47,418 nucleotides of DNA from Candidatus Nanopelagicales bacterium. GTDB lineage: Bacteria; Actinomycetota; Actinomycetes; S36-B12; CAIYMF01. Positions 31,809 to 32,495 of this stretch are shown here, piece by piece. The notes under the pieces are model-generated. The model saw nothing but the letters and a program-made list of their open reading frames with translations, was not told where the DNA came from and made no database searches. Both the position numbers and the translations under genes were made by a program. How positions within the stretch are numbered: the stretch's first letter is position 1; each line of letters starts with the position of its first letter. The stretch is taken from NCBI GenBank assembly GCA_017882705.1, contig JADGOZ010000077.1:1-47418 (forward strand), read 5' to 3'.

Positions 31809-31875
31809 CCTGATTCCTGGGGCGAGCCCGGCCGAGAACCTCGCGCCCCCGGTCTGCGTTGGACAGGGTGTGGGG

Positions 31876-32400
31876 ATGAGCAGCGGGGGACCCGGGACGG
31901 CGGAGGACGAGTTCCGTGCGTTCGTCGCGTCGACGCAGACCAGGCTGCTGCGGGTCGCGCTCACGCTCGACCGCGGGCTCGCCGAGGGCCTCGTGCAGAC
32001 GGCGTACCTCCGCACCTACGCGCGGTGGGGCCGCCTGCGCGACCAGGACCCGGTGGCGTACCCCGGCGTCCGCGCCGTCCTCTCGCCGCTGCTTCCCGTG
32101 AACCCCGCCGCGACGACCGTCAGCATCGAATACGTGCAGCTGCTCGACGGGCCGGCCAGGCCGTCGGTCGTCGTGCCGCCCGGGCGCGCGGTCTTCGTCG
32201 TCATCGACGTCCCGGCCACGTGCACGGCCGCCGACGACCAGGTGTCCGCGGTCGTCACGGTCGCCCTGCGTTCCGCCTCGGGCGGGACGGCACACCGTCG
32301 TGTCTCGACCCTCATCGGCCCGGGACACGACGGTTGGCGCAGCGAATTGCGGTTCGGAAGCCACTTTCCGGTCGAGTACCGATGGACCCGCCGCAGGTGA
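31876..32400 (+). CDS. Truncated SigE-like sigma ORF with unrelated C-terminus
   Basis: 174 aa. The first ~65 residues (DEFRAFVASTQTRLLRVALT, then GLAEGLVQTAYLRTYARWGR) match region 2 of SigE-subfamily ECF sigma factors as found in Streptomyces and Nocardioides-type genomes. Region 4, needed to bind the -35, is missing. After residue ~75 the sequence becomes a beta-rich, Val/Ala-rich segment (VEYVQLLDGPARP-like, CTAADDQVSAVVTVAL) that resembles a secreted or membrane-protein domain. It may be an in-frame deletion fusing a sigma gene to its downstream neighbour. CAGGGT lies exactly 6 nt before ATG 31876. A sigma function is doubtful. Confidence 0.6.
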   Translation: MSSGGPGTAEDEFRAFVASTQTRLLRVALTLDRGLAEGLVQTAYLRTYARWGRLRDQDPVAYPGVRAVLSPLLPVNPAATTVSIEYVQLLDGPARPSVVVPPGRAVFVVIDVPATCTAADDQVSAVVTVALRSASGGTAHRRVSTLIGPGHDGWRSELRFGSHFPVEYRWTRRR

Positions 32401-32495
32401 TTTGATGCCGGTACACGCGGCGTTGCGTGGGAGGCCCCCGGCGATCCCGGCGGCTCCTGGGTGGCGCCTCTCGGTTACCGCCTAGGAGTCCATCC

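Follow-up and report, generated by a model that had tools for sequence, protein, structure and literature searches.

A fused open reading frame (ORF) lying between cydC (TIGR02868) and the E1-alpha gene pdhA (TIGR03181) in the window, the 47,418-nucleotide stretch of contig JADGOZ010000077.1 that was analyzed here, is probably (roughly 80%, judged from sequence comparisons) a deletion remnant of a gene pair for a SigE-family ECF sigma factor and a membrane anti-sigma factor. Its product is most likely an inert remnant. A single deletion would have taken the 3' portion of the sigma gene together with the 5' portion of the gene downstream of it, with the in-frame join arising by chance. The pair can no longer work as a pair, since the sigma factor lacks region 4 and the end of region 2 and the partner lacks its N-terminal and membrane segments. 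Loss of an anti-sigma factor alone leaves its sigma factor unrestrained, so a joint deletion may be an easy route to losing both. The features of the ORF and its surroundings are collected in Table 1, in which G002 denotes a genome of the same genus that carries the two genes separately.

Table 1. Positions within the window of the fused ORF, its parts, and associated features
Feature	Position	Strand	Remark
ECF-type promoter-like motif, GAACCT-N14-GCGTT	31836..31860	+	ends 15 nt before the ATG
Fused ORF	31876..32400	+	ATG at 31876, stop codon ending at 32400, 174 aa
N-terminal part, residues 1-62: SigE-family sigma region 2, truncated before the region end	31876..32061	+	TIGR02983, E 3.8e-12
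Two-codon deletion between residues 28 and 29	31959..31960	+	gap in 0 of 42 other sigma sequences
Codon 38: Gly for the Asp/Glu of the region 2.2 motif	31987..31989	+	AEGLVQ vs AEDLVQ (alignment)
Approximate deletion junction	32061..32062	+	~755 bp of G002-like sequence missing
C-terminal part, residues 63-174: partner ectodomain and a tail of uncertain origin	32062..32397	+	G002 residues 146-233 align
Last ~10 codons of the ORF	32370..32400	+	align with G002 DNA behind the stop codon of the partner gene

The N-terminal part of the ORF was identified by its match to TIGR02983 (SigE family), in which ORF residues 8–67 cover profile positions 3–63 of 162. Region 4 was matched by neither Pfam nor TIGR02983, and no Pfam family was found in the whole ORF protein, so that the SigE-like region 2 without region 4 described in the initial annotation is borne out. 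The score of 46.4 bits lies below the curated TIGR02983 cut-off of 141.55. Past Tyr62 the ORF diverges, whereas its relatives carry on into the remainder of region 2; the segment lost at this point is presumably region 2.4. Over the part that is retained, the ORF shares 82% identity across 39 aligned codons with the sigma factor on G002 contig C69, and 80% identity with its gene over 124 columns of DNA.

For comparison across the family, the sigma profile was run on ORFs from the fetched family loci, giving 62 matches, 48 of them distinct. Of these, 42 have a match beginning no later than profile position 8 and were aligned, and the other 6 were left out; the resulting set contains four truncated genes, and the G002:C69 sigma factor is not among the 42. 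The position opposite Gly38 of the ORF is Asp in 39 of these sequences and Glu in the other 3, and the G002:C69 sigma factor has both the acidic residue and the two residues that the ORF has lost. In the sections available of PMC8999054 and PMC13147305, acidic residues of the region 2.2 motif are described as touching the RNA polymerase core. At this core-binding position the ORF has a glycine.

The C-terminal part had been called an unrelated beta-rich segment. It is in fact related to a known neighbor, as it belongs to the partner gene found downstream of the sigma gene in G002. When the ORF protein was searched against 60 relatives, two matches were returned, both on the single contig G002:C69: residues 25–63 in one frame and, after a further 760 bp or so, residues 65–144 in a different one. 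The genes on this contig run from a SigE-family sigma gene through a gene for a 254-residue protein to the same E1-alpha gene. The sigma factor is at least 150 residues long (the contig end cuts it), carries regions 2 and 4 by Pfam, and scores 158.6 bits with TIGR02983. The C-terminal part of the ORF aligns to residues 146–233 of the 254-residue protein at 39% identity (E 3.7e-4, one genome; local alignment score 104), and tblastn of the same part gave E 9.7e-8 within a 900-bp stretch. The search for this segment as a separate protein in relatives, proposed in the initial annotation, thus located it downstream of an intact sigma gene. The 254-residue protein has no Pfam or NCBIfam match and, read by eye, contains one hydrophobic stretch after ~50 residues; from its position and layout it is likely a membrane anti-sigma factor, here treated as putative. 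Its N-terminal, sigma-facing segment and its membrane helix are absent from the ORF, in which only about residues 146–233 of the 254 are represented.

Because separate sigma and partner genes precede the same pdhA in G002, the window looks like the outcome of an in-frame deletion, and the earlier proposal of a deletion fusion gains support from this arrangement. DNA homology to the G002 sigma gene extends as far as G002 position 124. At the protein level, homology picks up again around codons 144–146 of the partner gene, and DNA homology is again clear from the stretch before pdhA into pdhA itself (79% of 198 columns). Besides the segments named above, the linker between regions 2 and 4 is gone. 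In G002, the sequences flanking the two break points share no word longer than 6 bp, and this word is located away from the junction, so no long repeat is seen there. An interspersed repeat around GTGATCTTGGTCGTGTG was noted in G002, with 52 exact sites (e.g. C272:3609-3667, in L184), often as inverted pairs with starts 42 bp apart, and with 0 exact copies in 16 other family genomes. This repeat, present near the G002:C272 fusion, was considered as a possible cause of deletions; its exact core is absent from the genome of the window (G000).

Synteny with G002 was seen on the pdhA side only, which was counted against the remnant reading. Contig G002:C69 ends inside the sigma gene, and the cydC end of G002 sits on another contig (C180), where other ORFs follow it. 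With the left side of G002 cut in this way, extra genes may lie between cydC and the sigma gene, or a rearrangement may have affected the left side in one of the two genomes. The initial annotation had named two observations that would speak against a functional fused gene, namely relatives carrying two separate genes at this place and no transcription of the fused ORF; the former, which is half of that statement, is found in G002:C69 as matched on the pdhA side.

All 174 codons of the ORF are open from its ATG, and the observation of a genuine reading frame is confirmed. As evidence the intact frame is weak, since 15.6% of first-order Markov sequences of the same composition were likewise open for 174 codons; two further frames, one per strand, are also open throughout the ORF span. 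GC content at codon position 3 is gene-like (0.93–1.00) in 30-codon windows up to codons 111–140, the junction included, and an open 174-codon frame with such values across the junction counts against the remnant reading. In the last three 30-codon windows of the ORF the values are 0.83, 0.77, and 0.73. In the DNA alignment, window position 32370 corresponds to G002 position 1294, and the stop codon of the G002 partner gene is at 1213–1215. That the last codons correspond to DNA behind a stop, together with the drop in GC content there, was counted in favor of a deletion remnant. No Rfam matches were found in 901 bases.

Homologues of the fusion were sought in sets of 60, 17, and 166 genomes, which overlap. 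Of the 166 genomes of the order, two gave a match to the C-terminal part at E 0.001: G002 and the genome that contains the window, where alone this part is fused. No orthologue spanning both parts was found in 60 relatives or in 17 family genomes, and of the 136 stretches of genome contigs that matched a peptide pattern, none was confirmed as the fused ORF. At the thresholds used, E1-alpha and CydC were each detected in 13 of the 17 family genomes. The cydC–pdhA gap of the window extends over 31809–32495. In G007, the closest genome by the first 120 residues of E1-alpha (98%), the gap of ~780 bp contains no match to the ORF, which was counted in favor of a remnant. Across five genomes of the genus this gap is variable, ranging from about 0.7 to 13 kb with differing content. 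It is ~4, ~6, and ~13 kb long in G009, G003, and G010, respectively, with other genes, and in G010 a SigE-family sigma gene of another subgroup and its partner lie directly after cydC.

The promoter-like motif upstream of the ORF is likely to represent, as far as its sequence and placement indicate, a putative autoregulated promoter of the lost sigma gene. The same GAACCT-N14-GCGTT arrangement precedes the intact sigma genes at G000:C192 and G016:C276, and its distance to the first conserved Phe codon is -76 in the window vs -75 and -73 in these two. A looser pattern was used on 23 upstream stretches, of which G000:C192 and G016:C276 matched at the corresponding place; 1 of the remaining 21 (L023, G009:C384) had a looser match farther away. 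By chance, the looser pattern was present in 1.35% of 2000 random 272-bp stretches of the window. Only two N14-spaced sites exist in G000, before the window ORF and at C192, and four other matches have longer spacing. A scan for sigma-70 promoters and terminators returned 0 sites. Of the leaderless-type promoter claimed earlier, the promoter-like motif itself stands, and its proximity to the ATG would fit a very short leader, which stays putative. The C192 sigma factor, which scores 183.8 bits with TIGR02983, is intact and shares 62% identity with the G002 sigma factor over 142 columns, so it could still drive the remnant's promoter. Transcription of the ORF is plausible given the preserved motif that it has in common with the intact paralogue; that paralogous sigma factor may still recognize the promoter left in place, and the product would be a short cytoplasmic protein that is probably unstable and has no role. 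Reading by eye also picked out a second element resembling a promoter, with GCAACCTTTC in it, ahead of the sigma genes in L007, L156, L184, and L185. It is common to another SigE subgroup and is retained by two truncated copies.

Selection was estimated against G002, giving dN/dS of 0.24 for the sigma part (39 codons), 0.91 for the C-terminal part (83 codons), and 0.14 for both flanking genes. Intact control pairs from the genus, matched by gene type with orthology unproven, gave 0.25 for sigma region 2 and 0.88 and 1.22 for anti-sigma ectodomains. The apparent relaxation of constraint in the C-terminal part was dropped as evidence of decay because the intact ectodomains give such values too. 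As the dN/dS of the ORF resembles that of the intact controls, it cannot distinguish a gene under constraint from a remnant of recent origin. The comparison suggests that most of the divergence between the ORF and G002 would be older than the fusion.

Structure prediction had been recommended in the initial annotation. AlphaFold2 was run with 22 sequences, the relatives being aligned over region 2 only, and the model of the ORF (mean pLDDT 66.8) shows helices in the N-terminal part, with 10-residue blocks at pLDDT 70–93; beyond residue 80 it is mostly strands, modeled with low confidence (block pLDDT 38–69). Foldseek with this model returned nothing at E 0.001 or below; region 2 of Escherichia coli sigma-E (4lup) was paired with it at probability up to 0.92 and E-values of 0.78–0.83. 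The model of the G002 partner was poor (mean pLDDT 49.2), and a fold search with it gave zero hits at E 0.001 or below.

Other SigE-type genes in the genus are also cut after region 2. Among the matches listed, five region-2-only SigE loci were inspected, plain contig-end cuts at the 3' side being excluded; further partial matches outside these five are at G008:C69 and G004:C3. A second, independent in-frame fusion, joining SigE region 2 to the ectodomain of another pair type, is located at G002:C272:3758-4636 (L184:3758-4639). Its frame is open for 308 codons and encodes 293 residues from the ATG; the start corresponds to TIGR02983 positions 5–68, and the remainder matches partner ectodomains of G009 and G010 (E 5e-23 and 1e-21, two sequences). 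Its region 2 has Pro and Cys where the closest relatives mostly have Ala and Gly. A search of 394 class genomes at 1e-8 gave some match in 118, with up to 6 candidates per genome scored, and among the matches listed no sequence outside G002 spans both parts of the C272-type fusion. At G002:C281 (L025:1414-1968), SigE region 2 and the linker continue in frame into a tail that resembles the C terminus of a tyrosine recombinase, for which the matches are weak and sub-threshold. Two SigE genes of G000, at C20:5499-5765 and C125:13-210, keep region 2 and have lost the rest; the C125 fragment begins at base 13 of its contig, and both genes run, by eye, into seemingly out-of-frame sequence. With three partner proteins as queries, no partner remnant was found beside G002:C281, G000:C20, or G000:C125. 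Among the matches listed, in-frame sigma/partner fusions thus make up 2 of the 5 inspected loci (the window and G002:C272), a share that does not clearly exceed the one third that chance would give. The C272 fusion and the truncated C20, C125, and C281 genes point to repeated loss of SigE-type genes, as read from their sequences.

Compared with a SigE-family ECF sigma factor (TIGR02983) accompanied by a membrane anti-sigma factor, the ORF is alike in region 2, promoter layout, and pdhA-side neighborhood but lacks region 4, has an incomplete region 2, and scores below the family cut-off. The G002:C272 fusion likewise has SigE region 2 in frame with a partner-type ectodomain, but it derives from another pair and promoter type, keeps the motif Asp, and lies on another contig among other neighbors. 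The SigO-RsoA system of Bacillus subtilis has its sigma4 and sigma2 domains on two different proteins, according to the portion available of PMC8103513, and RsoA resembles the ORF as a region 2 protein without region 4. SigO supplies sigma4 to RsoA, whereas the two genes adjacent to the ORF encode CydC and E1-alpha, and a gene for the missing region 4 was not found at these two positions. The ECF43 sigma factors (EcfP) are without the acidic DAED motif in region 2.2 in the accessible part of PMC8999054, and negative charge is lost from the core-binding motif in them as in the ORF. ECF43 members have a phosphorylated Thr at the motif and possess a kinase; the ORF has Gly there and no region 4.

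Several other readings of the ORF were weighed. The fusion would be an assembly artefact if gene copies or strains had been misjoined and the organism in truth held two intact genes, and the fragmented state of the data (drafts of 194 contigs for G000 and ~300 for G002) and the failure to find an independent copy of the junction in the genomes searched fit such an error. The contig, however, extends 47 kb around the junction, no long repeat is seen at the G002 break points, and the small changes within region 2 fit decay of the gene itself, which makes misassembly unlikely. A regulated domain fusion of the ECF41 or ECF52 kind, with a regulatory domain fused to a sigma factor, is hardly credible. 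The ORF does combine a sigma domain and a partner-derived segment on one chain, as ECF52 (SCO4117) combines sigma and further sequence, but ECF52 retains its ECF sigma domain alongside a zinc finger, a membrane region, and a carbohydrate-binding domain, as given in the excerpted text of PMC5826349, and the ORF has no region 4, membrane segment, or Pfam-recognized zinc finger.

A functional regulator, in which the region 2 fragment, made from the sigma factor's own promoter, damps transcription by binding to the clamp of RNA polymerase or to the intact paralogue's partner, is quite unlikely. Region 2 is damaged: the core-binding acidic residue is gone and two nearby residues are deleted, all of them kept in 42 of 42 other sequences, and this weakens the earlier proposal of a core-RNA-polymerase-binding decoy, which is not supported. 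The intact promoter motif leaves that proposal some room; its layout is that of the paralogue at G000:C192, the only other N14 site in the genome, and this paralogue is itself close to the G002 sigma factor at the identity given above. The region 2 helices are modeled with good confidence, but the end of region 2 is absent, the C-terminal part is poorly modeled, and no fusion orthologue was found in the genome sets searched. The second in-frame fusion of the same plan in G002 would also suit a regulator and, like the intact promoter motif, was counted against the remnant reading. It is very unlikely that repeated in-frame region 2/ectodomain fusions under the sigma factor's promoter act across the genus as dominant-negative dampers on paralogous sigma factors, with the window ORF and the G002:C272 ORF as two independent cases.

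Read as a deletion remnant, the ORF illustrates the loss of a sigma/anti-sigma pair in one step. It also warns that, in genomes of high GC content, a chimeric ORF can be a deletion scar even when it looks intact. With its two independent in-frame fusions, the genus offers a small, testable set in which it may be asked whether such fragments gain roles.
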